Shown in pieces: positions 41,251 through 61,715 of a stretch of 64,000 bases of DNA (within the stretch, counting starts at the first letter, position 1; every line of letters begins with the position of its first letter). The DNA lies in assembly GCA_013519935.1 (NCBI GenBank), contig JACDUA010000001.1, positions 123,982 to 187,981 of the forward strand, in the 5' to 3' direction. Both the position numbers and the translations under genes were made by a program. The DNA comes from Ectothiorhodospiraceae bacterium WFHF3C12. GTDB lineage: Bacteria; Pseudomonadota; Gammaproteobacteria; Nitrococcales; Nitrococcaceae. The notes under the pieces are model-generated. The model did no database searches, was not told the DNA's origin, and saw only the letters and a program-made list of their open reading frames with translations.

Positions 41251-41337
41251 CAATGTCGTTGCCAGGCGCCAGCCCGAGTCTCTAAGGTGGCGGCAGCGAT
41301 GGCGTGCCCAGATACCCGAGCCAGGACATCCCTCAGC

Positions 41338-44010
41338 ATGCCCAGACACTACCTGGAACGCCTCTTCGAACCCCGCGCCGTGGCCGTCATCGGCGCCAGC
41401 GACAAAGAAGATACCGCCGGCAACCGGGTCCTGCGCAACCTCAAGGACTCCGGCTTCGAAGGCTCGATCTACCCGGTCAACCCGCACCACCGCCAGCTGC
41501 TTGGCGAGCGCAGCTACCGGAGTATTGCCGACACGCCCCGCCCCGTGGATCTGGCGGTGATCTCCACCCCCACCCACGCGGTGGCGGACGTGGTCCGCGA
41601 GTGCGGCGAACACGGCGTCAGCGGGCTGGTGATCCTCACGGCGGGCATCGACCGCGACGGCGCCCTGGAACGGCGGATTCTCGACCACGCCCGGCAGTAC
41701 CGGATGCACGTCATCGGACCCAACTGCCTCGGCATCATGCGCCCGCGGGTGGGGCTGAACGCCACATTCAGCCGCAACCAGGCCGCCAGTGGAGGGCTCG
41801 CGCTGGTCTCCCAGTCCGGCGCTCTGGTCAGCGCCATCCTCGACTGGGCCCAGGCCCGCAACATCGGTTTCTCGCTGACGGCATCCCTGGGCAACGCGTC
41901 GGACGCGGACTTCGGGGACCTGCTGGACTACCTCGCCACCGACGCCTCGACGCGGGCCATCCTCCTCTACGTCGAGGGCATCCGGGACAGCCGCCGTTTC
42001 ATGAGCGGTCTGCGGGCGGCGGCACGCGTCAAGCCGGTAATCGTCGTCAAGGCGGGCCGCCGCCCGGACGGCTCGCGGGCCGCGCTCTCCCATTCCGGCG
42101 CCCTCGTCGGCAGCGACCAGGTCTTCGAGGCGGCTCTCGCCCGGGCCGGGGGCATCCGCGTGCATACCGTGGAGCAGCTGTTCTCGGCCGCCGAGATCCT
42201 GTCGAAGGGGTTTCGCCTCAGGGGGAAGCGTCTGTGCATCGTCACCGACGGTGGCGGTCCGGCCGTCATCGCCAGCGACCACGCCAACGAGATCGGCGTG
42301 GGGCTTGCCGAGCTCTCCCCCGGCGCCATCGAGCGGCTGGATGCCACCCTTCCACGTCACTGGTCCCGGACCAATCCCGTGGACCTGCTGGAGGACGCGA
42401 CCCCGGAGCGATACCGCGATGCGCTAGCGGTCTGCCTCCAGGAAGACGGCGTGGATGCGGTGCTCGCCATGCTGGTGCCCCAGGCCATGACCGAACCCGA
42501 GCAGATCGCCCAGACGGTCATCGACGCCGCCAGCGAGACCCGCAAACCCGTGCTGGCGTGCTGGATGGGCGACGCCCAGGTGCGCGAGGCCCGCCATCGG
42601 TTCAGCGATGCGGGCATCCCGCATTTCGAGACGCCGGAGGCATCCATCGAGGCCTTCGCCGCCCTGGACCGTTATCAGGCCAACCACCAACTGCTGGTGC
42701 AGGTCCCCGGACCCGCCGCGTTCCGTCCCGGCCGGGACGTGGACGGCCCGCGCCTGATCATGGAGAACGCCCTGACCGAGGGCCGGGATCTGCTCACGAA
42801 CCTGGAATCCAAGGCGGTGCTGCGCGCTTTCGACATCCCCGTGGTCCGGACCATCGAGGCGCGAACCGCCTCGGAGGCGCTCGTGGTGGCCGAGTCGCTG
42901 GGCTATCCCCTCGCCATGAAGGTCAGCTCGCCGACCCTGACCCACAAATCCGATTTCGGCGGCGTTCGGCTGGACGTCGCCGACGCTCAGCAGGTCCGCA
43001 GGGCCTACGACGAGCTCATCGAGGCGGCCCGCACGGCTCATCCGGACGCGTTGGTCTCGGGCGTCACACTGGAGCCCATGCAGCACCGCATCCATGGCCG
43101 GGAGCTCATGGTCGGCATCAGTACCGACCCGGTCTTCGGCCCGGTGGTGAATTTCGGCGGCGGGGGTACGGCCGTGGAGTTGGTCAACGACGTCGCCGTG
43201 GCCCTGCCGCCGCTGAACGACTTTCTCGCCGACCAGCTCATGGCCCGCCCCCGTGTCGCCCGTCTGCTCACGGCGTACCGGGAACTGCCGGCCGTGGACA
43301 TGGCGGCGGTGCGCAACGTGCTGTTACAGGTCTCGGAGATGGTCTGTGCCCTGCCGCATATCCGGGAACTCGACATCAATCCGCTAATCGCCGATGAGTC
43401 CGGCGTCGTCGCGGTGGATGCCCGTATTCGCATCGCCTCCCCGGGCCGCGGCGCCGACCGGTACGGTCATCTCGCCGTGCATCCCTATCCCAGCCATCTG
43501 GTCAAGCGTACCCAGCTGCCCGACGGCACGGACATCGTCATCCGGCCCATCCGGCCGGAGGACGCCGAGCGCGAGCGCGCCTTCATCGACAGTCTGTCGC
43601 CGGAAGCGAAGTACTACCGCTTCATGGAGAATCTGCGCGAGCTCTCGCCGGCCATGCTGGCCCGCTTCACGCAGATCGACTACGACCGCGAGCTCGCGTT
43701 GATCGCCGTGCGAATGGATGGCCTGGACGAGGCGGAGCAGCTGGGCGTGGCCCGTTACAACATCGATCCCGACGGTGAGACCTGCGAGTTCGCGCTGGTG
43801 GTGGCGGACACCGTGCGCCGCCAGGGCCTGGGAACCCGCCTCATGATGGACCTCATGGAGAGCGCGCGAGCCCGTGGGTTGCGTGAAATCCACGGTGACG
43901 TGCTCTCGGAAAACCGCAAGATGCTGAAACTGATGCGGCAGCTCGGTTTCGCCGTGCTGACCTCCCCGGACGATGCCGGGGTCAAACGCGTCACGCGGGA
44001 TCTGCGCTGA
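41338..44010 (+). CDS. Bifunctional NDP-forming acyl-CoA synthetase / GNAT protein (Pat-like)
   Basis: An 890-aa fusion: CoA-binding domain (LFEPRAVAVIGASD), succinyl-CoA-ligase-like domain (LVSQSGALV, then SHSGALVG with His252), ATP-grasp domain (SPTLTHKSDFGGVRLDV), and a C-terminal GNAT domain (about 735-890; VADTVRRQGLGTRLMMDLME). In E. coli PatZ, as I recall, the catalytic His is replaced and the protein only acetylates lysines; here both phosphohistidine motifs look intact. ATG 41299 (with AAGGTGG 8 nt upstream) is an equally possible start. A TetR gene is divergent. Confidence 0.92.
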   Translation: MPRHYLERLFEPRAVAVIGASDKEDTAGNRVLRNLKDSGFEGSIYPVNPHHRQLLGERSYRSIADTPRPVDLAVISTPTHAVADVVRECGEHGVSGLVILTAGIDRDGALERRILDHARQYRMHVIGPNCLGIMRPRVGLNATFSRNQAASGGLALVSQSGALVSAILDWAQARNIGFSLTASLGNASDADFGDLLDYLATDASTRAILLYVEGIRDSRRFMSGLRAAARVKPVIVVKAGRRPDGSRAALSHSGALVGSDQVFEAALARAGGIRVHTVEQLFSAAEILSKGFRLRGKRLCIVTDGGGPAVIASDHANEIGVGLAELSPGAIERLDATLPRHWSRTNPVDLLEDATPERYRDALAVCLQEDGVDAVLAMLVPQAMTEPEQIAQTVIDAASETRKPVLACWMGDAQVREARHRFSDAGIPHFETPEASIEAFAALDRYQANHQLLVQVPGPAAFRPGRDVDGPRLIMENALTEGRDLLTNLESKAVLRAFDIPVVRTIEARTASEALVVAESLGYPLAMKVSSPTLTHKSDFGGVRLDVADAQQVRRAYDELIEAARTAHPDALVSGVTLEPMQHRIHGRELMVGISTDPVFGPVVNFGGGGTAVELVNDVAVALPPLNDFLADQLMARPRVARLLTAYRELPAVDMAAVRNVLLQVSEMVCALPHIRELDINPLIADESGVVAVDARIRIASPGRGADRYGHLAVHPYPSHLVKRTQLPDGTDIVIRPIRPEDAERERAFIDSLSPEAKYYRFMENLRELSPAMLARFTQIDYDRELALIAVRMDGLDEAEQLGVARYNIDPDGETCEFALVVADTVRRQGLGTRLMMDLMESARARGLREIHGDVLSENRKMLKLMRQLGFAVLTSPDDAGVKRVTRDLR

Positions 44011-44014
44011 CCCC

Positions 44015-45409
44015 TCACAGGGGATTCTTGCTGGTCACCTCGACGACGTCGTGCAGGTAGCGCCGCTCTCCGCCCAGTTCCAGTAGCGAGACCGAGAACG
44101 TGAACACACTCGGTGCCGGGGCCCTTATCGCTATCCGGCTGGCTTTCAGCGTGACCCCCGCGGCGTCGACCCGGGAACCCGTGGCATCGATGGCTACCGG
44201 TGCCTGAATCCGGCTGGCGGTCATCTCCACCGTGCTGTGGGCCAGCACCAGGGCGACTTCGTCACCGTGGACGACGGTATTGCGCAGTGTCGCCCGGGAG
44301 CTGAGGATCTCCAGTCGGCCGATATGAGCATCGCGGATGATGACGTCCTCGCAGTCGTAGATGAGCAGCCTGCGAAACTCGCCCGTGAAAACGCGCCCGT
44401 GCTCGCCCCGGCATTCCGCCGTGCGCCCGGTCCCGGGCGGGCGCTCCGCCGTCTTCCGGGGGTAGCCGTCCTGGGCGAAATCCAGGAAGCCGCGGGACGG
44501 CATCCTCAAAGCATTTCCCACCAGCCGGTTGAATCGATCGGCCTGCTCCAGCGGAAAGACATGGCTGCCGCCCTCGACGATCTTCAGCCGGCTGTTGGGG
44601 AGCAGCGTGGTCAGGAGGTAACCGACGCGAAGCGGCGCCACTTCCTCGTCACCGCCCCAGAGCACGTAGGCGGGCACGCGGGTCTCGCGGACGATACGGC
44701 TGAAGTCCGTGGAGACCAGTGCCAGGCCGGCGATCCGCGCGGGATCGGCCTCCAGATAGAGCTCCCGGGACTCGGGCGTCTTCAGCGCCGTGGCCGGGTC
44801 GGGCCCGAGGCGCTCGAATTTGGTGAGAATGCGCTGCACCAGTTTCCCGGCCACCTCGCCGATGCCGGGAATCTGCGGCAGATAGCGCTGCACCCCGTAG
44901 CGGCTGAGAAAATGGGCATAGGCCGCACCGTGCAGGATGCCCGCGGTGGAGGCCATCACGAGCCGCTCCACCCGATCCGGGTGAGCGTGGGCGTAGTAGA
45001 GCGCCACCGCGGCGCCCATGGAATGTCCCACCAGCGCCACGGGGGAATCGAAGCGCTCGCTGACCAGTTCGTCCAGAAACGCGGCGTAGTTCTCCGGCGA
45101 GTACAGCGCGTTGGGCTTGCCCGAACCGCCGAAGCCCGGCAGGTCAACCGCGACGACACGGTGACGCTTCGCCAGGGCCGGAATCAGCTCGCGCCAGAAA
45201 CGCGCCCCGTCCGTGCCCAGGCCATGAACCAGAAGCACGGGATCGCCAGTCGACGGCCCCGCCTCGTAGACGGCGGCGCCGGTGTCGAAAACCCTGGAGT
45301 GAAACCGCGTCGCGCGGGCATCGGTCCCTTCCAGCCAGGATACGTCACCGGCCGGCGCTGCACCGCTCAGGATCAGGCCGGCCAGCAGCGCAAACACACG
45401 TCCCAACAA
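44015..45409 (-). CDS. Exported alpha/beta hydrolase with C-terminal beta-helix-like domain
   Basis: A 464-aa protein: signal peptide (VFALLAGLILSGAAPAGD), alpha/beta hydrolase (LLVHGLGTDGARFWRELIPA, VDLPGFGGSGKP, nucleophile LVGHSMGAA, WGGDEEVAPL, and EGGSHVFPLEQA with the catalytic His) to about residue 300. A C-terminal region of about 140 residues has short alternating hydrophobic strands (LLIYDCEDVIIRDAHIGRLE, ATLRNTVVHGDEVALVLAHS) that look like turns of a parallel beta-helix. The fusion is unusual. It is divergent from the darA-like gene. The substrate is unknown. Confidence 0.85.
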   Translation of the reverse strand: MLGRVFALLAGLILSGAAPAGDVSWLEGTDARATRFHSRVFDTGAAVYEAGPSTGDPVLLVHGLGTDGARFWRELIPALAKRHRVVAVDLPGFGGSGKPNALYSPENYAAFLDELVSERFDSPVALVGHSMGAAVALYYAHAHPDRVERLVMASTAGILHGAAYAHFLSRYGVQRYLPQIPGIGEVAGKLVQRILTKFERLGPDPATALKTPESRELYLEADPARIAGLALVSTDFSRIVRETRVPAYVLWGGDEEVAPLRVGYLLTTLLPNSRLKIVEGGSHVFPLEQADRFNRLVGNALRMPSRGFLDFAQDGYPRKTAERPPGTGRTAECRGEHGRVFTGEFRRLLIYDCEDVIIRDAHIGRLEILSSRATLRNTVVHGDEVALVLAHSTVEMTASRIQAPVAIDATGSRVDAAGVTLKASRIAIRAPAPSVFTFSVSLLELGGERRYLHDVVEVTSKNPL

Positions 45410-45789: not shown

Positions 45790-46731
45790 ATGAAACGTGT
45801 CCTCGTCGTCTACTTTTCGCAGACCGGTCAGTTGGCCTCCATCGCCCGAACGCTCAGCGAGCCGCTGGCGAGCGCCGCTGATTGCGAGGTCGAATACGAG
45901 GCGTTGACACCCCGCAAGCCGTATCCGTTCCCGTGGCCGGTGTTCGATTTCCTCGACGCCTTCCCGGAGACCGTGGCCCTGGAGCCACCGGAGATCGAGC
46001 CGCTACGGGCCGATCCGGACCAGCGATACGACCTGATCATACTGGCGTATACGGTCTGGTTCCTGTCACCGGCACCGCCGATCACGGCGTTTCTCAAGTC
46101 CGGGTCCGGGCGCGCCCTGCTGTCGAACACACCCGTGGTGACGGTGGTCGGCTGCCGGAACATGTGGCTGCAGGCCCAGGAAGACATGAAAGCCCTGCTC
46201 GCGGAAGCAGGCGCCCGGCACGTCGATCACGTGGCGCTTACCGACCGCGGCAGCAGCCTCAAGACGCTGATCACGACGCCGCGCTGGATGCTGACCGGGC
46301 GGCGGGATCCATTCTGGGGTGTCTTCCCCCGCGCCGGTATCGACGCCGCCGATATCCGCGACTCGGCGCGTTTCGGCAACGCGCTGCTCCGGGCACTGCG
46401 CGCCGGCACCATCGACAGCGGTGAACCGACGCTGCGGGGCCTGGGGGCCGCGCCCGTGGATGATCGCCTGATTGACAGCGAGCGCATCGGCAAACGAAGC
46501 TTTACGATCTGGTCGAAGCTCCTCCGGCGCGTGGGGCCACCGGGTACGGCCGCGCGGCGGGCCGTGCTGGGGATCTATCTGGTATTTCTGGTGACCATGA
46601 TCGCCACCGTCGTGCCGATAACGATGACATTGCGCGCCCTTCTCCGGCCGCTGCGGCAGCGGAAGATCTCGGCGCAGAAAGCCTATTTCGAACAGCCCTC
46701 GGGCTCGGACCGATCCGGAATCCATTCCTAG
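45790..46731 (+). CDS. darA: DarA-like flavodoxin-fold protein (dialkylresorcinol/aromatase type)
   Basis: A 313-aa protein with an N-terminal flavodoxin fold: KRVLVVYFSQTGQLASIART (FMN phosphate loop), then LIILAYTVWFLSPAPPITAF and VVTVVGCRNMWLQAQEDMKA. Near the C-terminus is one transmembrane helix (AVLGIYLVFLVTMIATVVPI), followed by a basic tail. In dialkylresorcinol clusters DarA is the enzyme that aromatises the cyclohexanedione made by DarB, and is annotated in databases under the family name dialkylresorcinol condensing enzyme. DarB-like ketosynthase follows 6 bp later. Assignment is by family resemblance and context. Confidence 0.82.
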   Translation: MKRVLVVYFSQTGQLASIARTLSEPLASAADCEVEYEALTPRKPYPFPWPVFDFLDAFPETVALEPPEIEPLRADPDQRYDLIILAYTVWFLSPAPPITAFLKSGSGRALLSNTPVVTVVGCRNMWLQAQEDMKALLAEAGARHVDHVALTDRGSSLKTLITTPRWMLTGRRDPFWGVFPRAGIDAADIRDSARFGNALLRALRAGTIDSGEPTLRGLGAAPVDDRLIDSERIGKRSFTIWSKLLRRVGPPGTAARRAVLGIYLVFLVTMIATVVPITMTLRALLRPLRQRKISAQKAYFEQPSGSDRSGIHS

Positions 46732-46737
46732 CTGCTC

Positions 46738-47892
46738 ATGACGAATCCCGTATATATCCGCCGGCTCGCCGCATTTCTGCCGGGCGAGCCCATCGACAAC
46801 GAGCGCATGGAATCGCTTCTGGGTCAGATCGATCAACGCCCGTCCAGGGCCCGCCGGCTGGTGCTGCGGAACAATGGCATCACCACGCGGTACTACGCCC
46901 TGGACCCGGCCACCGGTCGGCCCACCCACAATAATGCCCAGCTCACCGCCGAGGCGGTACACCTGCTCGCCGATGCCGGTCTGGATCTGGATCAGCTGGA
47001 CGTGCTCGCCTGCGGCACCAGTTCCCCGGACCAGCTCATGCCCAACCACGCGGTCATGGTCCACGGCGAGCTCGGCAACCCGCCCTGCGAGGTCTCCAGC
47101 AGTGCCGGCGTCTGTGTTGCGGGCGTCACCGCGCTGAAGTACGCGGCCATGACGATCGCCCTTGGCACCGCCCGCACCGCGGTGGCGACGGGCTCGGAGA
47201 TCGCCTCCACCTTCATGCAGGGCAAGTACTTCCGTGGCGAAAACGACGCCCGCGTCGCTGCCATGGAGCAGAATCCGGAGATCGCCTTCGAGAAGGACTT
47301 CCTGCGCTGGATGCTGTCGGACGGTGCCGGTGCCGTATGGCTGTCTCCGGATCCCGGCGATGGGCTTGCGCTGCGGCTGGACTGGATCGAGCAGCGCTCC
47401 TTCGCCAACGAGTTGCCGGCCTGCATGTACGCCGGCGCCCGCAAGCGCGAGGACGGCACCCTCGAGGGCTGGCGCGAGGTGGGCTCGATGCAGGAGGTCG
47501 TCGACGACTCCCTGTTCGCCGTCAAGCAGGACGTGCGGTTGCTCAACGAGCACATCGTCGAATACACCGTGGAGCGCATGCTGCCTTACGTTCGCGCCCG
47601 GCATCCGCTGCACCCCGCGGATGTGGACTGGTTCCTGCCCCACTACTCGTCACGCTACTTCCGCGACCGGTTGGCCGCGGGCCTGCGACGTGCCGATTTC
47701 GAAATTCCCCAGGAGCGCTGGTTCACGAATCTGCCCTGGGTGGGCAACGTGGGTTCGGCCTCCATCTACCTCATGCTCGAGGAGCTCCAGCGCAGCGGCC
47801 GCCTGCAACCCGGCCAGACCGTGTTGTGCCACGTGCCGGAGAGCGGCCGATTCTCCTCGGCGTTCATGCAGCTGACCGCCGTGACCCCATGA
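46738..47892 (+). CDS. darB: DarB/StlD-like ketosynthase (KAS III fold)
   Basis: A 384-aa FabH-fold condensing enzyme. The catalytic triad is Cys126 (SSAGVCVAGVTALKYA), His302 (WFLPHYSSRYF) and Asn337 (NLPWVGNVGSASIYL). It opens VYIRRLAAFLPGEPIDNERM and has GITTRYYALDPATGRPTHNN, as in the DarB family, which joins two 3-oxoacyl chains into a 1,3-cyclohexanedione. Its stop overlaps the next ATG by 4 bp. The acyl substrates are presumably supplied on ACP or CoA. Confidence 0.9.
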   Translation: MTNPVYIRRLAAFLPGEPIDNERMESLLGQIDQRPSRARRLVLRNNGITTRYYALDPATGRPTHNNAQLTAEAVHLLADAGLDLDQLDVLACGTSSPDQLMPNHAVMVHGELGNPPCEVSSSAGVCVAGVTALKYAAMTIALGTARTAVATGSEIASTFMQGKYFRGENDARVAAMEQNPEIAFEKDFLRWMLSDGAGAVWLSPDPGDGLALRLDWIEQRSFANELPACMYAGARKREDGTLEGWREVGSMQEVVDDSLFAVKQDVRLLNEHIVEYTVERMLPYVRARHPLHPADVDWFLPHYSSRYFRDRLAAGLRRADFEIPQERWFTNLPWVGNVGSASIYLMLEELQRSGRLQPGQTVLCHVPESGRFSSAFMQLTAVTP

Positions 47893-48299
47893 GACGCGAG
47901 CAGGTACCACAGGACGACAACCGCACCCTCGGCGGCCACCGCAAGGCGGTCTACGCCGCCGATGAACGCGGCCGCATGAGAACGGTGGAGAGCACTGGCT
48001 GGTCCGTGGAGGAGCTGGTGACGTCCATGGCCGTGGAGGAATTCGAGGAGCTGGCCCGGGACGCCCGGGCCCGCGTCCAGGATGGGCGATGCGCGCCTCT
48101 CGCCTACCATATGTACCGACGCCGCATGGACACCCAGGTCCTGGCACAGGCGGTGGGCATGATGCAGTGGCGGGTGCGGCGCCATCTGCGCCCCGGCCCC
48201 TTCAGGCGGCTTCCGCCCCGGTTGCTGCAGCGCTACGCCGAGGCCCTCGGCATGTCCGTCGAAGCACTGGTCGCCTGGCCACCGGAAGAACAGCCATGA
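47889..48299 (+). CDS. Hypothetical protein with XRE-like C-terminal helices
   Basis: A 136-aa basic protein, unrecognised as a whole. Residues 1-60 include YAADERGRMRTVESTGWSVE. The C-terminal half, LAYHMYRRRMDTQVLAQAVG, MMQWRVRRHLRPGPF and RLLQRYAEALGMSVEALVAW, looks like a helix-turn-helix of the Cro/CI type. It overlaps darB and the BtrH-like gene by 4 bp on each side, so it is made in step with them. It could be a cluster regulator or a protein-protein adaptor. Confidence 0.8.
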   Translation: MRREQVPQDDNRTLGGHRKAVYAADERGRMRTVESTGWSVEELVTSMAVEEFEELARDARARVQDGRCAPLAYHMYRRRMDTQVLAQAVGMMQWRVRRHLRPGPFRRLPPRLLQRYAEALGMSVEALVAWPPEEQP

Positions 48300-49339
48300 G
48301 CCACATCGAGTTTCAGCACCGCCATGCCGGGCACTGCGAGAGCGGTGTCATGGCCTCGCTGATGAGCCACTACGGCCTGGCACTGTCGGAGCCCATGGCC
48401 TTCGGGCTGTCCGCCGCCCTGCTCTTCGCGCATTTCCCCTTTCTGCGCATCGGCGGGGTCCCGCTGACGGCCTACCGCATGCCGCCGGGCAGCATCATCA
48501 ATGGTGTGGCCCGGGTTACAGGCGCCCACTTCGAGCGCCGCCGCTTTCGCGACCCCGACGCCGGCATGCGCGCACTTGACGCGGCGCTGGAAGCCGGGCG
48601 GCCGGTGGGCGTGCAGACCAGCGTGTACTGGCTGCCGTACTTTCCGCCAGACATGCGCTTTCACTTCAACGCCCACAATCTGGTGGTCTATGGTCGCGAC
48701 GGCGACAACTACCTGATCAGCGACCCGGTCTTCGAGGCGCCCCAGCGTTGTCCGGCCGAGGCGCTGCGCAAGGCGCGGTTCGTCCGAGGCGCTTTCGCCC
48801 CACGCGGGCTCATGTACTGGCCCCGCCGGGTTCCGTCGTCCTTCGACCAGCGCCGCGCCGTGCGCAAGGCTGTGGCACGAACACTCAACATCATGACGCG
48901 TGCGCCCGTGCCGTGGGTCGGCACCCGGGCGATCCGGCGGCTGGCCACCCACATCGAGCGCCTGGGCCGCCGCGCCGATCCCCGTTACACGCGCTACCTG
49001 GTCGGCAGCATCATCCGGATGCAGGAAGAAATCGGCACCGGCGGCGGCGGATTCCGCTTCATGTATGCCTCCTTCCTGCAGGAAGCGGCTGAAGCCCTGG
49101 ATGCGCCGGATCTGTCAGTCTGTGCCGAAGCAATGAATGACGCCGGCGACCGGTGGCGGCTGTTCGCCCTGGCCGGGGCCCGTTTCATCCGCGACCGGAA
49201 TGAAGCCGGCACCGGCGAGCTGGCCGAAGCCCTGCGCCACTGCGCCGATCAGGAAGAGACGGTCTATTCGATGCTGCGGGAGTGGCTGCGGGGCCGCCCG
49301 GTGCCCACCGCCCGGGTGGGAACGGTCTCCGGAGACTGA
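48296..49339 (+). CDS. BtrH N-terminal domain protein, predicted ACP-linked acyltransferase
   Basis: A 347-aa protein whose N-terminal half matches the BtrH/peptidase-like fold: HAGHCESGVMASLMSHYG (probable nucleophile Cys14), then FHFNAHNLVVYGRDGDNYLI and SDPVFE (probable His and Asp). The C-terminal half is helical, as in the DUF4872 partner domain. In butirosin biosynthesis BtrH moves an acyl group from an acyl carrier protein to an amine. An ACP lies in the facing operon, supporting a similar acyl-transfer role; the acceptor is unknown. Confidence 0.85.
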   Translation: MSHIEFQHRHAGHCESGVMASLMSHYGLALSEPMAFGLSAALLFAHFPFLRIGGVPLTAYRMPPGSIINGVARVTGAHFERRRFRDPDAGMRALDAALEAGRPVGVQTSVYWLPYFPPDMRFHFNAHNLVVYGRDGDNYLISDPVFEAPQRCPAEALRKARFVRGAFAPRGLMYWPRRVPSSFDQRRAVRKAVARTLNIMTRAPVPWVGTRAIRRLATHIERLGRRADPRYTRYLVGSIIRMQEEIGTGGGGFRFMYASFLQEAAEALDAPDLSVCAEAMNDAGDRWRLFALAGARFIRDRNEAGTGELAEALRHCADQEETVYSMLREWLRGRPVPTARVGTVSGD

Positions 49340-49353
49340 CTGCGGCCCTTGCT

Positions 49354-50169
49354 CTAGCGCGCGCGGGTGACGCGGACCAGCGCTCGGCGGCCGTCGGCGC
49401 CTGCGGAGACATGTGCCATTTGCGCGCCGGCGGGGCCGTTGCGCAGGAACCCGCACCAGTGGGCCGCGGCAGCCGTATCGTGGGCCGGTACCCCGCCATT
49501 CTGACCCGGCGTTCGGATAACCACATCGACTCCCGCGCCCTGTAGGACAGCCTCCAGCTCGGCCTCGTCGGCGCAATACACGGGCGGCTCGATCCAGCCC
49601 AGCACGGGCCCGTCACCAATGCGCAGCCAGTGGCTGCCCTCACCGACCGGCGCGTCCGGCGGGCACCCGACGCGCCGGCGATGCGCGTCCAGCGGCCAGA
49701 CCAGCTCGTCCACCGCGCCCAGCAACGCGGCGCCATGACCGGCATGTTCCTCCGCCGCGATCTGCAGTGCCGCCTCCGCCGGGAAGTCCAGCTGTGAAAC
49801 CGTGGTATTGGCGGACTCCGCCCCCAGGCTCTGGGCCAGGTAGAAGCCCGCCATGTTGCCCGCGAGATTGATGAACTGGAACGGCATCGGTGGCAGGCCC
49901 CGGCCGACCACGGACTCCACCATCTCCGTCGTATCGGCGATATTGCCCTGCCCCGTGGCAATGACGATGGGCTGGGTGCTCCGCCACGCGGCAGCATCGC
50001 CCTGACGGCAGCGGTGAGCGCCGATCAGCGCGAGCTGGATGAACCGGTTGATGCGCCGGAAGCGTTGTCCCTCGGTGGCTTCACTGACCCAGGCGCCCAG
50101 GTCCACGGGCGCTTCCTCCGCCGCCAGTGTCAGGGAATAGGCGCTCGTCACCGGCAGGGCACGGCTCAT
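49354..50169 (-). CDS. Ketosynthase-like protein without the active-site Cys (chain-length-factor type)
   Basis: A 271-aa protein related to the N-terminal half of beta-ketoacyl synthases: FQFINLAGNMAGFYLAQSLG, then NTTVSQLDFPAEAALQIAAE (121-140), where a true KS has TVxxACxSS. The Cys position is Asp128, and no HGT or KxxxGH histidine motifs follow. This is the pattern of standalone 'beta-ketoacyl synthase chain length factor' proteins (PF13723-like) that pair with a KS. Its ATG overlaps the stop of the FabF-like gene by 4 bp, supporting a heterodimer. Confidence 0.82.
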   Translation of the reverse strand: MSRALPVTSAYSLTLAAEEAPVDLGAWVSEATEGQRFRRINRFIQLALIGAHRCRQGDAAAWRSTQPIVIATGQGNIADTTEMVESVVGRGLPPMPFQFINLAGNMAGFYLAQSLGAESANTTVSQLDFPAEAALQIAAEEHAGHGAALLGAVDELVWPLDAHRRRVGCPPDAPVGEGSHWLRIGDGPVLGWIEPPVYCADEAELEAVLQGAGVDVVIRTPGQNGGVPAHDTAAAAHWCGFLRNGPAGAQMAHVSAGADGRRALVRVTRAR

Positions 50170-51314
50170 GACGCGTACCTCAGAACCAGGCTCGTGTTGT
50201 TCCCGCCGAAGCCGAAGTAGTTCAGCAGGTAAAAACCGTCGCCGGCGGGCCGGTTCGATTCCAGCGGCTCGATGCCCAGCTCGGAATCCATCTCGGTGAA
50301 GCCGGCCGTGGCGGGCAGAAAGCCGGCCTTGAGCACGCTGACCAGGGCCGCCGTCTCCAGGGCCCCGCAGGCGCCCAGCGTATGTCCCAGATGGCCTTTC
50401 ATCGAAGTGAAAGGCGGCACGCCATCGCCGAAGGTCAGTCGCATTCCCGCGCCCTCGGCCTCATCGTTGCTCGGCGTGCTGGTGCCATGAGCCTTGATGG
50501 CGGTAACGTCGCTGGCAGGGATTCGGGCCTCGTCGAGGGCCGACTGCATCACCGCGGCGATAGCGTCCGGACGCGAATTGGTGGCACTGGAAGTATCGCA
50601 ACGGTTGGCCCCGCCATGGAACTGCACCGCCTGCCCCGCCCCGGCACGCCCAAGCACCAACGCGCCCACGCCCTCGCCGAGCACCAGCCCGTCCCGGCCG
50701 GCATCGAACGGCCGTGCACCCGTGTCCGAGATGAGCATCAAGGAAGCGAATCCCAGCAGCGACATCCGGTTATAGGACTCGGTACCCAGAATGAGCGCGG
50801 TCTCGAGCTCACCGCGGGCGATCATGCGCGCGGCGTAGAGCGCGGCGTTCGCGCTGGAGGAGCAGGCCGTGTTGAAGGTCAGGCGTGGCCCGCCGAGTCC
50901 GAGCCGCCGGGCCAGCACGTCGGCCACCACGCCGTATCCCGATCGCTCGCCCCCCATGGGCACGGCGTCCGGGTCCTTCTTCCGGGCCTCGTGGTAAGCC
51001 ACTTCGCAGTCGCCGATCTGCAGGGAGGAGCTGCCCAGAAACAGTCCCATGCCGGCGCGCCGGGAACCGACCAGGCCGGCCTCGCGCAATGCCTGCTCGG
51101 CGGCGGCGTCCATCATGTCCGGCAGGCTCGGCGCCCCGGCAACGCCCCGGTATGGCAGGCGCTTGCCGTCCTCCAGCTCCCCGGCTCCCACCCACGACAC
51201 CTCGGGTGGCTCACTGGCGAGCGCCGTCACGTGAGCCTGGCTGCCGGTTCCCAGGTGAGAGACCATACCGGTGCCGAGAACGCTGGCGATTCCCTGATTG
51301 CTCGCTGCGGCCAT
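50166..51314 (-). CDS. Beta-ketoacyl synthase, FabF-like
   Basis: A 382-aa condensing enzyme with the complete triad: Cys151 (LTFNTACSSSANA), His276 (AIKAHGTSTPSNDEAEG) and His308 (SMKGHLGHTLGACG). The terminal LLNYFGFGGNNTSLVLRYAS is also typical. It is shorter than FabF (about 410 aa), mainly at the N-terminus. It follows the ACP gene by 1 bp and overlaps the CLF-like gene, so the three should be made together. Confidence 0.93.
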   Translation of the reverse strand: MAAASNQGIASVLGTGMVSHLGTGSQAHVTALASEPPEVSWVGAGELEDGKRLPYRGVAGAPSLPDMMDAAAEQALREAGLVGSRRAGMGLFLGSSSLQIGDCEVAYHEARKKDPDAVPMGGERSGYGVVADVLARRLGLGGPRLTFNTACSSSANAALYAARMIARGELETALILGTESYNRMSLLGFASLMLISDTGARPFDAGRDGLVLGEGVGALVLGRAGAGQAVQFHGGANRCDTSSATNSRPDAIAAVMQSALDEARIPASDVTAIKAHGTSTPSNDEAEGAGMRLTFGDGVPPFTSMKGHLGHTLGACGALETAALVSVLKAGFLPATAGFTEMDSELGIEPLESNRPAGDGFYLLNYFGFGGNNTSLVLRYAS

Positions 51315-51315
51315 G

Positions 51316-51582
51316 CTACTCGGGTTGCAGAAAGTCGGCGAGACCGTTCACCGAGGTCATTACACGGCGCATTTCCTTGGGATCTGCGATGCGCACCGAG
51401 AACTCCTTCTGGAGCGCCATGGATACCTGAAGGCCATCCAGCGAATCCAGCTGCAGCTCGGATTCTTCGCCGAAAAGGGGCGCATCGTCGGCGATGTCCG
51501 CCGGTGCCACGTCCTTGTCGCATTCCTGGATGATGAGCGCCTTGAGGCGGTGTTTGAGATCAGCGTCCTCGGAGCCTCGCAT
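51316..51582 (-). CDS. Acyl carrier protein
   Basis: An 88-aa ACP with phosphopantetheine attachment Ser47 in LQLDSLDGLQ, preceded by DDAPLFGEESELQ, and a final helix ending in SVNGLADFLQPE. It opens MRGSEDADLKHRLKALIIQE. A GTG one codon upstream is also possible. Placement between the ABC permease and the ketosynthase marks it as the dedicated carrier of this locus rather than the housekeeping AcpP. Confidence 0.9.
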   Translation of the reverse strand: MRGSEDADLKHRLKALIIQECDKDVAPADIADDAPLFGEESELQLDSLDGLQVSMALQKEFSVRIADPKEMRRVMTSVNGLADFLQPE

Positions 51583-51589
51583 TACGACT

Positions 51590-52783
51590 TTACCGTTCGC
51601 TCGTGAATCGTTTCGCGGCCAGCACCAGGCAAAGCACACCCAGCGCCGCAAGGGCCGCGGTCTCGGGCAATACCGCCTGCCATCCGCGGTCGCGCAGCAG
51701 AATGTCCCAGAAGCCTTCCAGCCCCCACGACATCGGCGAGAGCACGGTGAAGGCCTGAACGTCCGGGGCCATGACCGCCTTCGGCACCATGACGCCACCC
51801 ACCGCTCCCATGACCAGGTTGGCCACGCCGGCGAAGGTCGTCGCCTGCACCGTGGTGCCCGCCATGACCGATATTAACAGCGCGTAACCGATGGCGGCGA
51901 TGCTGGTGCCGGAGCCGATGAGCCAGAGGCCCACGCTGCTGCCGCCCAGACTGAGCCTGTCGCCGCCGAGCAGCGGCACCAGCCATGCACCGACGGCGAG
52001 CATGATACCCATTTGCGCCATATTGACCAGGTAGTAAGGCAGAATCTTGCCACCGAACACCACACCGGATGGCACGTTCATCAGCTTCAGCCGCTGGGCA
52101 CTGCCCTGCTGACGCTCGACGATGAACACCGTGGATATCGGTATGACCACGAAGAACATGGCAAAGACCAGCCATGCGGGCACGTTCTGCTGGACGGCGT
52201 TGGGCAGCCGCCCCGTCCGGGCCCCGCCGCCCGACGTCACGGCCACCGGCAGCTCCGCCGCGGAGCCCGCACTGGCTGCCATGCCCAGGCCCGGCGTGGC
52301 GGCGATCAGGCGTTCCACCCGCAGGGTCTGCAGGGCACGCGCCACGGCCATCTCCAGCGCCGTCCGCCGGAACGCCGTGATTGCCGGATCGACGAACAGC
52401 TCGACCACCGCGCCGTCGGGGGCACGGCCGCTTTCCACCCATTCGGCGAGGCCCGGACGAACCACTATGGCGTAGGACAGCCGTCCGCTCGCAACGGCCG
52501 CGCCCAGGCCCTCCCCGTCACCCTCGATCCGCTCGGGGTGAATACCGTCGGTCTGCCGCAGGGTATCGATGAACAACTGGGCCGTCGGGGTGCCGGAGAG
52601 ATCCGCCAGTGGCACGCTCACCGATTCACTGAGCCGCTCCTCGAAGCTGCCCTTCAGCGCCAGGGACATGGTCAGGATGAACACCGCCGGCAGCGCGAAG
52701 AGCACCACGAGACCCTGCCAGTCCCGGCGCAGTACCCGCAGTTCCTTCTCAGTCGCGCTCAGCAGACGCCGCATCTTCTTCAT
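51590..52783 (-). CDS. ABC-2 type transporter permease
   Basis: A 397-aa permease: one N-terminal TM (LVVLFALPAVFILTMSLALK), a large extracytoplasmic domain (about 50-210), and five C-terminal TMs (VPAWLVFAMFFVVIPISTVF, YYLVNMAQMGIMLAVGAWLV and following). This is the ABC-2 topology of YhhJ/DrrB-like exporters. Its start overlaps the ATPase gene by about 35 bp. It lies 7 bp before the ACP gene. Confidence 0.92.
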   Translation of the reverse strand: MKKMRRLLSATEKELRVLRRDWQGLVVLFALPAVFILTMSLALKGSFEERLSESVSVPLADLSGTPTAQLFIDTLRQTDGIHPERIEGDGEGLGAAVASGRLSYAIVVRPGLAEWVESGRAPDGAVVELFVDPAITAFRRTALEMAVARALQTLRVERLIAATPGLGMAASAGSAAELPVAVTSGGGARTGRLPNAVQQNVPAWLVFAMFFVVIPISTVFIVERQQGSAQRLKLMNVPSGVVFGGKILPYYLVNMAQMGIMLAVGAWLVPLLGGDRLSLGGSSVGLWLIGSGTSIAAIGYALLISVMAGTTVQATTFAGVANLVMGAVGGVMVPKAVMAPDVQAFTVLSPMSWGLEGFWDILLRDRGWQAVLPETAALAALGVLCLVLAAKRFTSER

Positions 52784-53708
52784 CCCAGCTTCGCCCGCTC
52801 AGGCGCAGGTAGACGTCCTCCAGTCGCGGTCGCCCGAAATCGAAGCCGGCGACTCTCGCCCCGCAGGTTCCGGCCAGATCACGGACCCGGGCCAGCACCT
52901 CGACGGGCTCCCCGGCCGCGAGCTCCAGCTCTCCCGCCGCCGGTAGCCAGCTGGCCTCCGGGAAGCACCGGCGCAGCCCCTCACCCAGGGCCTCGCCACC
53001 GCCGGCCAGGCGCACCTGCAGCCGGCTCTCCGAGTAGCGCTCCAGCAGCGCGGCCAGGGAATCCTGCACGAGAATACGGCCCGACTCGATGATCGCGACC
53101 GTGTCGCATAACTGCTGCACCTCGTCCATGTAGTGGGAGGTGTAGATCACGGTCATGCCCTGATCCCGCAGATCCCGGATACGTTCGAGGATGTAGTGGC
53201 GGGAATGGGGGTCTATCCCCACCGTGGGCTCGTCCAGACATAGCAGCTTCGGGTCGTTGAGCAATCCGATGGCCAGGTTGAGCCGCCGTTTGAGCCCGCC
53301 GGAGAGCCGCTCGGCGCGCACCTCCGCGTACTCGCCGATCTGAACCGTCTCCATGGCCGTGGCGATACGCCGTGCCGCGGCCTCGCGGCGCAGCCCCATG
53401 ACCCCGGCATAGAATCGCAGGTTTTCCGCCACCGTCAGCATGGGATAGAACGCCAGCGCCTGGGGCACGAAGCCGAGGACGTCCCCCAGCCGGCCCCGCC
53501 AGGCCCCCAGAGGCCGATCCGCCAGGTGGATCTCGCCGGAATCGGCCCTGAGCAGCCCCGCCAGCACCGACAGCAGCGTGGTCTTGCCGGCGCCGTTCGG
53601 TCCCAGCAGACCGAAGATGCTGCCCCGCTGGATGTCCAGGCTGACGTCATCCAGCGCCGGGCGGCGCCCGCCGGGGTATCGCTTGCTAAGGTGTCGGATC
53701 GAAATCAT
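52749..53708 (-). CDS. ABC transporter ATP-binding protein
   Basis: A 319-aa ATPase: Walker A LLGPNGAGKTT (about 34-44), signature LSGGLKRRLNLA, Walker B LLCLDEPTVGIDP, and a C-terminal accessory region typical of drug- or lipid-exporting ABC-2 systems (DrrA/CcmA type). ATG 53708 (MISIRHLSKRYPGG) is preferred over the frame from 53741. It is the first gene of the minus-strand operon and overlaps the permease gene. Confidence 0.94.
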   Translation of the reverse strand: MISIRHLSKRYPGGRRPALDDVSLDIQRGSIFGLLGPNGAGKTTLLSVLAGLLRADSGEIHLADRPLGAWRGRLGDVLGFVPQALAFYPMLTVAENLRFYAGVMGLRREAAARRIATAMETVQIGEYAEVRAERLSGGLKRRLNLAIGLLNDPKLLCLDEPTVGIDPHSRHYILERIRDLRDQGMTVIYTSHYMDEVQQLCDTVAIIESGRILVQDSLAALLERYSESRLQVRLAGGGEALGEGLRRCFPEASWLPAAGELELAAGEPVEVLARVRDLAGTCGARVAGFDFGRPRLEDVYLRLSGRSWDEEDAASAERD

Positions 53709-57409: not shown

Positions 57410-57561
57410 ATGCCTTTCCCCTCGCAACGCCGCTCGCCGCGGCGTAACAAACCCTTAACCTGTCTGCAATAATATGCCCGATGGGGAACGTCCCGGGGTG
57501 TATTCTACGCCCACCAGCCCCAACCATAAGCCAGAAGAGTGCGTCGAGCCGCCGCCACACC

Positions 57562-59640
57562 ATGGACACACCAGACCTCAAGCAGCCGGATCTTTTCATC
57601 AACCGTCAGCTCAGCCTGCTGGAATTCAACCACCGGGTGCTGGAACAGGCGAAGGACACGCGTCATCCCCTCCTCGAGCGACTGAAGTTCCTGTGCATCA
57701 CCAGCACCAACATGGACGAGTTCTTCGAGATCCGCGTGGCGGGCCTCAAGCAGGCCATCGAGATGGGGTCCGTGCAGGCTGGTCCGGATAACCGCACGCC
57801 CCAGGAAGTCCTGCGGGCCATCTCCACCCGGACCCACGAGCTGGTATCGGAGCAGTACCGGGTGCTCAACGACGTCCTCACTCCGGCACTGGCCGGCGAA
57901 GGCATCCGGTTCCTGCGACGCGCCGAGTGGACACAGGCGCATCAGGGCTGGGTCAAGGAATATTTCGAGGATTCCCTGCTCCCCGTGCTGAGCCCGCTGG
58001 GACTGGACCCGGCTCACCCCTTTCCCCAGGTTCTGAACAAGAGCCTGAATTTCATCGTTTCCCTGGAGGGCAAGGATGCCTTCGGGCGCAACAGCGGGCT
58101 CGCAGTGGTGCAGGCGCCCCGGGCGCTGCCGCGTATCATCCAGCTGCCGCCCGAGGACCCGAACAACGGGCCCAATGACTTCGTCTTCCTTTCCTCCGTT
58201 ATCCATGCCCACGTCAACGATCTGTTTCCGGGCATGAATGCCACGGGCTGCTATCAGTTCCGGGTAACCCGCAACAGCGATCTGTTCGTGGACGAGGAGG
58301 AAGTGGATGATCTGTTGCGGGCCATGGAGGGCGAGCTGCCCTCGCGGCGCTACGGCGACGCGGTGCGGCTGGAGATGGCCGCCAATTGCCCGGACTACAT
58401 GGCGAGCTTCCTGCTCAACGAGTTCGAGCTCGGCCAGGACGACCTCTACCAGGTGGACGGTCCCGTGAACGTCAACCGGCTCCTGGCCGTGGTCGATCTG
58501 GTGGACCGCCCGGACCTGAAATACGGTTCCTTCACACCGGGACTGCCGCCCCAGGTGGACCGCCAGAGCGATATCTTCAAGACGCTCCGGCAGCGCGACG
58601 TGCTGCTGCATCACCCATTCGAGTCCTTCGCACCGGTGGTGGACTTCGTCCGCCAGGCCGCCCACGACCCCGAAGTCCTGGCCATCAAGCAGACGCTCTA
58701 CCGCACCGGACCGGACTCGGTCATCGTCGACAACCTGGTCGCTGCCGCACGGGCCGGCAAGGAGGTCACCGTCGTCATCGAGCTGCGCGCCCGGTTCGAT
58801 GAAGAAGCCAATATCAAGCTTGCGAACCGGCTTCAGGAGGCGGGTGCCCACGTGGTCTACGGCGTGGTCGGCCACAAGACACATGCCAAGCTGATCCTCG
58901 TGGTCCGCCGCGAGGGCCGCCATCTGCGGCACTACGTTCACCTGGGGACCGGCAACTACCATTCACGCACGGCCCGGCTCTACACGGATTACGGCCTGCT
59001 CACCAGCAACGAGAACATCGGCGAGGACGTGCACAAGGTATTCCTGCAGCTCACCAGCCTGGGGAAGGTCTCGGCGTTGTCCGAGCTGCTGGAATCGCCC
59101 TTCACCATGCATGACGGCATGCTGGCCAAGATTGAGCGCGAAACCCGTAACGCCGAGGCGGGCAAGCCCGCCCGTATCATCGCCAAGGTGAACTCCCTGG
59201 TGGAACCGCGGGTGATTCAGGCGCTCTACCAGGCCGCGATGGCGGGCGTGGAAACCGACCTCATCGTCCGGGGCATGTGCTCTCTGCGCCCCGGTGTCCC
59301 CGGCATCTCGGAGCGCATCCGGGTACGTTCCGTCATCGGACGCTTCCTGGAGCACACCCGGGTTTTCTACTTCGAGAACGGCGGCGACCCGGAGATTTTC
59401 TGCAGCAGCGCCGACTGGATGGAACGCAACTTCTTCCGCCGCGTCGAGATTGCCTTCCCCATCAAGCAGCCCGACCTGCGCGACCGGGTGCTGCGCGATC
59501 TGCAGTGCTATCTGGAGGACAACGTGGAAGCCTGGGAACTGGATCGCGAGGGCCTTTACCACCGTCTCACGCCCGCGGAAGGCGAGCGGCCCCGACCGGC
59601 GCAGATCCTGCTGCTGGAAGCGCACGCCGAGTCGAGCTGA
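57562..59640 (+). CDS. ppk1: Polyphosphate kinase 1
   Basis: Makes polyphosphate from ATP at the inner membrane. The 692-aa protein has the N domain (FINRQLSLLEFNHRVLEQAK), and the kinase core with the phospho-acceptor His441 in GHKTHAKLIL, then YVHLGTGNYHSRTARLYTDY, and FCSSADWMERNFFRRVE. ATG 57562 (MDTPDLKQPD) was chosen over the frame from 57481. It is convergent with ppx 15 bp away, so the two opposing activities are adjacent but not in one operon. Confidence 0.97.
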   Translation: MDTPDLKQPDLFINRQLSLLEFNHRVLEQAKDTRHPLLERLKFLCITSTNMDEFFEIRVAGLKQAIEMGSVQAGPDNRTPQEVLRAISTRTHELVSEQYRVLNDVLTPALAGEGIRFLRRAEWTQAHQGWVKEYFEDSLLPVLSPLGLDPAHPFPQVLNKSLNFIVSLEGKDAFGRNSGLAVVQAPRALPRIIQLPPEDPNNGPNDFVFLSSVIHAHVNDLFPGMNATGCYQFRVTRNSDLFVDEEEVDDLLRAMEGELPSRRYGDAVRLEMAANCPDYMASFLLNEFELGQDDLYQVDGPVNVNRLLAVVDLVDRPDLKYGSFTPGLPPQVDRQSDIFKTLRQRDVLLHHPFESFAPVVDFVRQAAHDPEVLAIKQTLYRTGPDSVIVDNLVAAARAGKEVTVVIELRARFDEEANIKLANRLQEAGAHVVYGVVGHKTHAKLILVVRREGRHLRHYVHLGTGNYHSRTARLYTDYGLLTSNENIGEDVHKVFLQLTSLGKVSALSELLESPFTMHDGMLAKIERETRNAEAGKPARIIAKVNSLVEPRVIQALYQAAMAGVETDLIVRGMCSLRPGVPGISERIRVRSVIGRFLEHTRVFYFENGGDPEIFCSSADWMERNFFRRVEIAFPIKQPDLRDRVLRDLQCYLEDNVEAWELDREGLYHRLTPAEGERPRPAQILLLEAHAESS

Positions 59641-59655
59641 AGCCGGCGCCGGGGC

Positions 59656-61149
59656 TCAGCGGCAGATCAGCCGATAGCCGGCGGACCGAAGGTAGCCTGC
59701 CTCTTCTTCGAGATCGGCTTCCGCCAGGGGATGATCCGCGAGCCAGTCATCCGGGAAATGCAGTGCAACGCTCCGGCCATCGGGCTTCAGCACGATGCTG
59801 GGCAGCGGGTCCCGACCACGGCCCCGGTGCAGCCGAACTGACAGCCGCAGCAGTATGGCCAGCCGCTGGGCCGGCTCCGTCCACGCATCGGGCAATTCCT
59901 CGAACACCGTACGCGGGAACTTCCGCCGGTGGGTCCGCACCAGGCTCGCCAACAGCAGCTGTTCCTGTTTGGAGAACCCCGCCATATCCGCGTTGCGGAG
60001 CACATAGGCGCCGTGCTTGTGATACTGGCTGTGGGATATGTCCAGGCCGATCTCGTGCAGCGAAGCGGCCCAGGCCAGGGCCCGGCCGAAGATGGGCTCG
60101 CCCAGCCGCCAGTGGTTCCGCGCCTGCTCCAGGAAGCCGAGGGCCGTCTCTCCGACGCGCCCGGCGTGCTCCGTATCGGCGTGATAGCGCCGCGCCAGGG
60201 CCTCCACGGTCAGAGCGCGCACGTCCTCGTGCTGGATGCGCCCGAGCAGATCGTAGAGCAGCCCCTCGCGCATCGCGCCGTCGGCCGCCTCCATCCGTTC
60301 GATGCCCAGCGCCTCGAACACCCCCACCAGAACGGCCACGCCCCCCGGGAAGATCTCGGCGCGATCCCGGCTGAGGCTCGAGAATCGGATTTTGTCCACG
60401 TGCCCGGCTTCCACCAGGGCCTTGCGCAGCTGTTTGAGGCTCGAAGCGGTAATGCCGTAGTCGCTCCAGCCGGCCTCCTGGACCACGCGCTGGATCGCCC
60501 GAACCGTCCCCGATGCACCGACGGCGCGCTGCCAGGCCTCTTCGCGGAACCGGCTCTCGATGGGTTCCAGTTCCATTCGCGCGGCAAGCACCGCCCGCTG
60601 CATGCGACGGCTGGAAATGCCGCCCCCCTGGAAGTGCGCCTCCATGAGGCTGACGCAGCCCATGTGCAGGCTTTCCATAAGCCGCGGCGCGAACCCCTCG
60701 CCGGTGATGAGCTCCGTGCTGCCCCCGCCTATGTCCACCACCAGCCGCTGTTGGCCGTCGTCCGCGAGGGAATGGGCAACGCCGAGGTAGATGAGCCGGG
60801 CCTCCTCGTAGCCGGACACGATGTCGATCTCATGCCCCAGCGCATCCCGGGCCCGATCGAGAAAACGCCGCGAATTCCGGGCCTTGCGCAGGGTATTCGT
60901 ACCCACGGCACGCACGCTGCCGGGTGGGAACTCGCGGAGCCGTTGACCGAACCGGGCGAGGGTCTCCAGCCCTCTTTCCATCGCCGCGCTGGTGAGGTAA
61001 TTGGTTTCGTCGAGGCCCCCACCGAGCCGCACGCTCTCGCGCAGGCGATCCACCACCTTCAGCTGGCCGTCCTCGACCCGGGCGATAAGCAGGTGAAAGC
61101 TGTTGGAACCGAGGTCAATGGCAGCTGCAATTTCCGGATCCCGCAACAC
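59656..61149 (-). CDS. ppx: Exopolyphosphatase (Ppx/GppA family)
   Basis: Degrades polyphosphate (or pppGpp). The 497-aa protein has the ASKHA ATPase motifs IAAAIDLGSNSFHLLIAR and LVVDIGGGSTELITGEGFAP, GASGTVRAIQRVVQEAG, and a C-terminal HD-like half (LAWAASLHEIGLDISHSQYH). Start: GGGAGA lies upstream of GTG 61149 by 3 nt and TTG 61146 by 6 nt; TTG may be the true start. It follows sixA by 44 bp and is convergent with ppk1. Confidence 0.95.
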   Translation of the reverse strand: MLRDPEIAAAIDLGSNSFHLLIARVEDGQLKVVDRLRESVRLGGGLDETNYLTSAAMERGLETLARFGQRLREFPPGSVRAVGTNTLRKARNSRRFLDRARDALGHEIDIVSGYEEARLIYLGVAHSLADDGQQRLVVDIGGGSTELITGEGFAPRLMESLHMGCVSLMEAHFQGGGISSRRMQRAVLAARMELEPIESRFREEAWQRAVGASGTVRAIQRVVQEAGWSDYGITASSLKQLRKALVEAGHVDKIRFSSLSRDRAEIFPGGVAVLVGVFEALGIERMEAADGAMREGLLYDLLGRIQHEDVRALTVEALARRYHADTEHAGRVGETALGFLEQARNHWRLGEPIFGRALAWAASLHEIGLDISHSQYHKHGAYVLRNADMAGFSKQEQLLLASLVRTHRRKFPRTVFEELPDAWTEPAQRLAILLRLSVRLHRGRGRDPLPSIVLKPDGRSVALHFPDDWLADHPLAEADLEEEAGYLRSAGYRLICR

Positions 61150-61193
61150 AGTTCTCCCGAATCGATAGCCCGCCGGCGCCCCGGCACCACGGG

Positions 61194-61715
61194 TCAACCC
61201 GCGGGAAGCCGGCGCAGGACCTTTGGCGGCAGCGACCAGACCAGCTCGCCCCTGCCGGCGCGCACCTGTTCTTCGAAGGCGATCAGGCAGCAACCGCCCT
61301 TCTTCAACGGCACGAAGGACCGTGCCGTGCCGGCCAGGGCGGCGCTGGCCAGTTCGCCGAGGTCCGGCTCGTGGCCCACGACGGCGGCACAGGCTTCCCG
61401 GGGCTGGCCGCGTCGCCATGCCAGCACCGCTTCCGGGTCGCCCCCTGGAACCAGCACCTGCAACGTTACACGCTGCGCCGCGGGATAGAACTCACCCAGA
61501 ATATCCGCCGTCTCCATCGCCCGACGGTAAGGGCTTGCGGCGATGATCCCGATCTCCGGGAGAAACCCGGCCAGCCCGCTGGCCGCACGCGCCATGCGCT
61601 CCCGGCCCTCGTCGGTGATCGGACGGGCTGCCTCGTCGATGCCCTGCTTCGCCGCCACTTCACGGTCCAGGGCAATGGCGTGGCGCACGATCAGCAGGCG
61701 CGCGGCGTGGCTCAT
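61194..61715 (-). CDS. sixA: Phosphohistidine phosphatase SixA
   Basis: A 173-aa histidine-phosphatase-superfamily protein with the catalytic RHA motif LLIVRHAIA (His12), SPYRRAMETADILGEF and the second His in VVGHEPDLGELA. SixA removes phosphate from phosphohistidine domains of phosphorelay or PTS proteins. ATG 61715 (MSHAARLLIV) was chosen over the frame from 61790 because family members begin just before the RHG/RHA motif. It lies upstream of ppx on the same strand. Confidence 0.93.
   Translation of the reverse strand: MSHAARLLIVRHAIALDREVAAKQGIDEAARPITDEGRERMARAASGLAGFLPEIGIIAASPYRRAMETADILGEFYPAAQRVTLQVLVPGGDPEAVLAWRRGQPREACAAVVGHEPDLGELASAALAGTARSFVPLKKGGCCLIAFEEQVRAGRGELVWSLPPKVLRRLPAG

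Follow-up and report, generated by a model that had tools for sequence, protein, structure and literature searches.

The closest described counterpart of the locus considered here is the dar cluster of Azoarcus sp. BH72 (azo0283-azo0293), published in 2014, for which Table 1 of the paper lists darA (annotated as a DAR-aromatase), darB, a conserved hypothetical gene, a BtrH-like gene, an ABC ATPase, an ABC permease, an ACP, a ketosynthase and a further hypothetical gene (PMC3949708). In that organism the dialkylresorcinol (DAR) occurs esterified to an aryl polyene as the yellow pigment arcuflavin, and disrupting either of two mutually unlinked polyene clusters abolishes the pigment; free DAR is undetected, though the dar genes make DAR in E. 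coli, and Variovorax, Dechloromonas and Sideroxydans are named as carriers of both cluster types (PMC3949708). The flexirubin clusters of the Bacteroidota, as in Chitinophaga pinensis and Flavobacterium johnsoniae (PMC3992019), also combine DarA and DarB with aryl polyene genes and lead to an ester product, as is proposed below for the present host, and they use a tyrosine ammonia-lyase to provide the starter.

Within the window (the whole 64-kb stretch of DNA that was analysed, which lies on contig C1 of the host genome), nine open reading frames correspond to the Azoarcus set, and together they very probably represent the dar half of a pathway, of the arcuflavin/flexirubin kind, for an aryl-polyene-dialkylresorcinol pigment:

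45790-46731, plus strand: darA, flavodoxin-like dialkylresorcinol aromatase/condensing protein, assigned from its position and its similarity to the darA neighbour of DarB elsewhere
46738-47892, plus strand: darB, ketosynthase (cyclase) of the StlD/DarB family (NF005293; Cys126, His302, Asn337)
47889-48299, plus strand: small protein of the darG family (NF053536), in the position of darD in Azoarcus naming
48296-49339, plus strand: darH (darE in Azoarcus naming), BtrH-type cysteine acyltransferase (NF053550; BtrH_N and DUF4872; Cys14, His127, Asp143)
49354-50169, minus strand: darK, ketosynthase-like putative chain-length-factor partner without an active-site Cys, assigned from an AlphaFold model and structural matches
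50166-51314, minus strand: darJ, FabF-like ketosynthase (PF00109/PF02801; Cys151, His276, Lys306, His311)
51316-51582, minus strand: darC, acyl carrier protein (PP-binding over cut-off; invariant D-S-x-D motif)
51590-52783, minus strand: darI, ABC-2 permease (PF12698 and PF01061 over cut-off)
52749-53708, minus strand: darF, DrrA-like ABC ATPase (ABC_tran over cut-off; best NCBIfam match drrA, under its cut-off)

All nine ORFs were confirmed in the order, at the positions and on the strands originally predicted, as two convergent blocks whose ends lie 14 bp apart. The spacing of -4 to +7 bp predicted within the blocks does not hold everywhere, in that a permease ORF starting from the ATG at 52783 shares 35 bp with that of the ATPase. 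There is also a clash of names: the NCBIfam families DarG and DarH correspond to darD and darE of Azoarcus, while the darG and darH of Azoarcus are its Phd-like and PilT-like genes. DarTG, a toxin-antitoxin system, is unrelated to the DarG of dar clusters.

Taken function by function, all nine members of the Azoarcus set (darA, B, D, E, F, I, C, J and K) occur together here, the comparison being with the gene list in Table 1 of PMC3949708 and sequence conservation having been checked in other proteobacteria. The BH72 cluster differs in having two extra internal genes of toxin-antitoxin type (PilT-like and Phd-like), whereas the locus has none; in both organisms the polyene clusters lie elsewhere in the genome. 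The BtrH-like and ABC genes, which the original prediction had regarded as additions to the usual set, are in fact standard parts, present both in the BH72 cluster and in relatives, and the proposal that the locus makes an undescribed resorcinol- or cyclohexanedione-type lipid gives way to a published set of the same nine functions, the BH72 cluster, like those in relatives, being largely the known cluster of identical content and product that would count against it. That claim of novelty arose because only 64 kb had been seen. The locus is ordinary in kind and well conserved, and its gene set is already known.

It had also been remarked that ketoreductase, dehydratase, acyltransferase and other polyene genes are lacking, which is true of the locus itself but not of the genome. 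Using Ketoacyl-synt_2 (PF13723) and LolA_3 (PF19574) as markers for aryl polyene clusters, matches were found on host contigs C145 and C47, and the genes concerned are distributed over three short contigs as follows:

C47:1-3682: AMP-ligase, ApeI/FabA-like dehydratase, lipid A-type acyltransferase, LolA_3 protein and the start of an exporter
C53:1-3012: remainder of an MMPL-type exporter (identified by inspection and from similarity to relatives) and a ketosynthase
C145:1-2592: ketosynthase-like partner, second dehydratase-like ORF, ketoreductase and glycosyltransferase

The second dehydratase-like ORF on C145, for which there was no Pfam match, was assigned from similarity and position. The gene order over the three contigs is that of an unbroken cluster which directly adjoins dar in a relative from the same order (G072); exact overlaps between the contig ends were sought and none was found. 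It would appear that the three are pieces of a single broken aryl polyene operon. The host genome therefore contains aryl polyene genes as well as dar, as is expected of an aryl-polyene-DAR (arcuflavin-like) pathway, on contigs that have no proven link to the window contig. A new lipid pathway with no polyene part, which was the original proposal, would accord with the absence of polyene genes from the 64-kb window, but given such genes on C47, C53 and C145 of the same genome, and given that the same dar set has been published (PMC3949708), it is scarcely credible. Because the dar set is a known one and the genome, like that of Azoarcus, has its polyene genes at other sites, the product would, by analogy, most likely be an aryl-polyene-dialkylresorcinol ester, a yellow membrane pigment like arcuflavin. 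As a separate observation, in G072 (L065:7495-9282) the dar ABC ATPase is separated from the AMP-ligase by an ACP and an ORF that, by eye only, resembles an FAD-dependent halogenase and recalls arcA, the halogenase gene of Azoarcus.

The individual proteins fit this assignment to differing degrees. DarA, which reached the cut-off of no NCBIfam or Pfam family, has 43-59% identity by tblastn to the darA neighbours of DarB in other loci; a plasmid search with it returned three places in Streptomyces, at 33% identity and annotated as hypothetical. DarB scored 575.9 bits against the StlD/DarB family NF005293 (cut-off 450) and 492.9 bits against NF053539, resorcinol_DarB, which represents DarB sensu stricto and has a cut-off of 550. 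Its Cys/His/Asn active site aligns with that of StlD, the three residues being at the positions originally claimed (Cys126, His302, Asn337). The possibility that DarB is a housekeeping FabH was considered and rejected on the strength of the StlD/DarB family score and of its closest match in the PDB, which is StlD (5gk0, 452 bits), FabH-type enzymes reaching only about 50 bits. The small plus-strand protein, predicted to be HTH-like, belongs instead to the DarG family (NF053536, 164.5 bits, cut-off 70), and Pfam found no HTH domain in it; it falls below the cut-off for flexirubin_DarG (123.1 bits against 170), in contrast to what would be expected of a flexirubin cluster. In the ACP, DarC, the Asp-Ser of the D-S-x-D motif is invariant.

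In the case of DarJ and DarK, an active ketosynthase, with Cys151, Lys306 and His311 invariant in the alignment, adjoins a partner of ketosynthase fold that has no active-site Cys, which is the arrangement characteristic of a ketosynthase/chain-length-factor pair. The description of the partner as "Cys-less" is right for the active site only, there being four other Cys residues in the protein. DarK matched no NCBIfam or Pfam family, but its AlphaFold model (pLDDT 88) has as its top structural matches the ishigamide chain length factor and an AntDE chain, with active ketosynthases only about 1-2 Z units lower. On the basis of these models, DarJ and DarK may form a ketosynthase/chain-length-factor pair that feeds DarB.

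A tblastn search with the nine window proteins found the set again in dozens of genomes, for the most part with 30-60% identity, and as judged from these sequence matches the recurrence is more than chance. A DarH scan of named genomes gave 33 loci with a DarH neighbourhood. Among the loci and relative contigs, the second block lies downstream on the opposite strand, as in the host, in 16 cases, downstream on the same strand in 14 (mostly betaproteobacteria) and upstream in two, while in eight no second block was recovered, in most of them because the contig or the retrieved sequence stops short. The two blocks are thus linked in relatives, and two layouts are common, namely the convergent one, seen in many gammaproteobacteria, and the single collinear operon of betaproteobacteria. 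The latter, in Variovorax, Xenophilus and Rhizobacter (L019-L030, L034), contains the same genes at about 30-57% identity, but in one collinear operon rather than two convergent blocks, and with a DarK homologue that is either shorter (about 160 aa) or undetected. All this supports the view that DarA and DarB, the BtrH-like acyltransferase and a dedicated ACP, ketosynthase pair and ABC exporter make up one conserved unit. In G072 about 13 kb separates the two dar blocks, and this interval (C6:115108-127998, in L064 and L065) holds, by eye only, a response-regulator-like ORF and a very long haemagglutinin-repeat adhesin-like ORF. Elsewhere about 1 kb of extra sequence occurs inside the dar block, on one or other side of darG, towards darB or towards darH (L007:8404-9600, L015:2596-3540 and G252 C33:26541-27586, the last being in L075).

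The association between dar and polyene genes was then assessed in a class sample of 369 genomes, 18 of which have DarH over cut-off. PF13723 is present in every one of these 18 genomes and in 69 of the 351 others (Fisher p 1.2e-12), and LolA_3 in 15/18 and 52/351 respectively (p 1e-9); for DarB over cut-off the corresponding figure is 21 of 21 genomes with PF13723 (p 9e-15). These p values are optimistic in that the genomes are not independent, though the matches come from many different families. PF13723 is absent from four genomes whose DarB-like matches are weaker, under the family cut-off. In several genomes the dar and polyene genes are also physically linked. Three genomes of the sample (G104, G198 and G221) have DarB over cut-off and PF13723 without a DarH match; a different enzyme might form the ester there, or the assembly might have a gap.

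These counts bear on the idea that the locus makes a free dialkylresorcinol (a signal or antioxidant, like those of Pseudomonas chlororaphis or Photorhabdus) and exports it unjoined by the ABC transporter, with the polyene cluster providing a separate pigment. Members of the StlD/DarB family do also make free resorcinols or stilbenes, and the cluster has an ABC exporter of its own. Nonetheless, the locus includes DarH, which throughout the class sample is accompanied by a polyene-type gene (18/18), the DarB-like genomes lacking the polyene marker are just those under the family cut-off, and in Azoarcus, as noted above, it is the ester and not free DAR that is seen, so that a free product seems unlikely. 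The polyene-resorcinol ester remains the preferred reading, and attention then turns to the enzyme that would form it.

DarH scored 458.1 bits against NF053550 (cut-off 300), and the 27 sequences from which its structure model was built (pLDDT 92) all share Cys14, His127 and Asp143. Its relatives in the PDB surfaced through fold comparison only, since a search of the PDB with the DarH alignment profile gave nothing but coiled-coil chance matches and phmmer gave no match at all. The best fold matches of the model are AziU3, CtaG and CcbD (Z 22-25 over about 300 residues, the next group being at Z 14), so that DarH combines the papain-like fold, helical domain and Cys-His-Asp triad of CtaG/CcbD-type acyltransferases; the His-to-Asp spacing, 16, is the same as in CtaG. 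Compared with CtaG, CcbD, AziU3 and BtrH, this shared fold is accompanied by an identity of just 12-16% or so. The PDB entry titles for CtaG name C11A, H128A and D144N variants and a complex with PHBA, while that for CcbD states that it was solved with a carrier-protein domain. Enzymes of the CtaG and CcbD type transfer carrier-bound acyl groups, although the known acyltransferases of this group (CtaG, CcbD, AziU3, BtrH) mostly act on amines of other substrates. By virtue of its CtaG-like fold, invariant triad and His-Asp spacing, DarH is a good candidate for polyenoyl transfer to the resorcinol, and, as far as the model can indicate, it probably joins the two by taking the polyenoyl group from a carrier protein.

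A variant of this reading would have DarH transfer some other acyl group, for instance a fatty acyl group from DarJ, DarK and DarC, to give an acylated resorcinol lipid not far from what was first proposed. That an ACP and a ketosynthase/chain-length-factor pair adjoin DarH speaks for it, but the strict co-occurrence of DarH with polyene genes, their physical linkage in several genomes and the fact that the product of the known analogue is a polyene ester make it very improbable. For the polyene-resorcinol ester, then, Cys14, His127 and Asp143 of DarH offer a concrete candidate for the joining step, which the arcuflavin and flexirubin papers cited here leave unproven; the flexirubin literature suggests a ligase-like enzyme, FlxW. 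This structural case for DarH as the ester-forming enzyme, together with the strict co-occurrence that supports such a role, is of modest new value.

From the observed gene content, families, catalytic residues, predicted folds, polyene genes and co-occurrence we infer, for every enzymatic step as well as for product and export, the following route. DarJ and DarK would supply the acyl chain with the ACP DarC, DarB would condense two fatty-acid-derived acyl thioesters to a cyclohexanedione, and DarA would aromatise this to a 2,5-dialkylresorcinol. An aryl polyenoyl thioester would come from the polyene genes outside the window, and DarH, as a papain-like cysteine acyltransferase, would transfer its polyenoyl group to a phenol of the resorcinol. 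DarF and DarI, aided by the polyene cluster's MMPL and LolA proteins, might move the product towards the outer membrane. Such a route would extend the aryl-polyene-resorcinol pigments to another gammaproteobacterial lineage.

The origin of the aryl ring is a different matter. The HAL/TAL ammonia-lyase family PF00221, to which a flexirubin-like starter enzyme would belong, was not found in the host genome, its controls matching, and nor was PF21168, the FkbO/Hyg5-type (XanB2/ArcB-type) chorismatase that would provide the 3-HBA starter of arcuflavin, in contrast to the Azoarcus polyene cluster, which has a XanB2-type chorismatase. PF21168 does match 66 of the 369 class genomes, including G358 and G071, where it lies near their dar and polyene genes. 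An assembly gap or some other route could possibly account for the lack of a detected ring-starter enzyme in the host. Because no ring starter was found, the locus is best classed with the dar clusters of Azoarcus type, as part of an aryl-polyene-DAR pathway, and not as a proven arcuflavin pathway. It may tentatively be supposed, with some doubt, that the pigment is an ester of arcuflavin type, that a starter route involving neither tyrosine ammonia-lyase nor XanB2 chorismatase provides its aryl ring, and that DarH is a CtaG-like cysteine acyltransferase that forms the ester on a phenol.

As to the surroundings of the locus, only one of four flanking genes tested, an alpha/beta hydrolase on the minus strand (44015-45409), had a relative, and that in a single locus, so that the flanks are taken to lie outside the unit. 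The hydrolase has an apparent signal peptide and a C-terminal part of about 150 residues without assignment, and its relative, with 36% identity across 432 aa, is found in L004, some 8 kb downstream of darH. Next to it, at 41287-44010 on the plus strand, is an acetyl-CoA-synthetase-type (ADP-forming) protein fused to a C-terminal Pat-like GNAT acetyltransferase, and at 57481-61419 a polyphosphate kinase (plus strand) and an exopolyphosphatase (minus strand) converge, about 15 bp apart.
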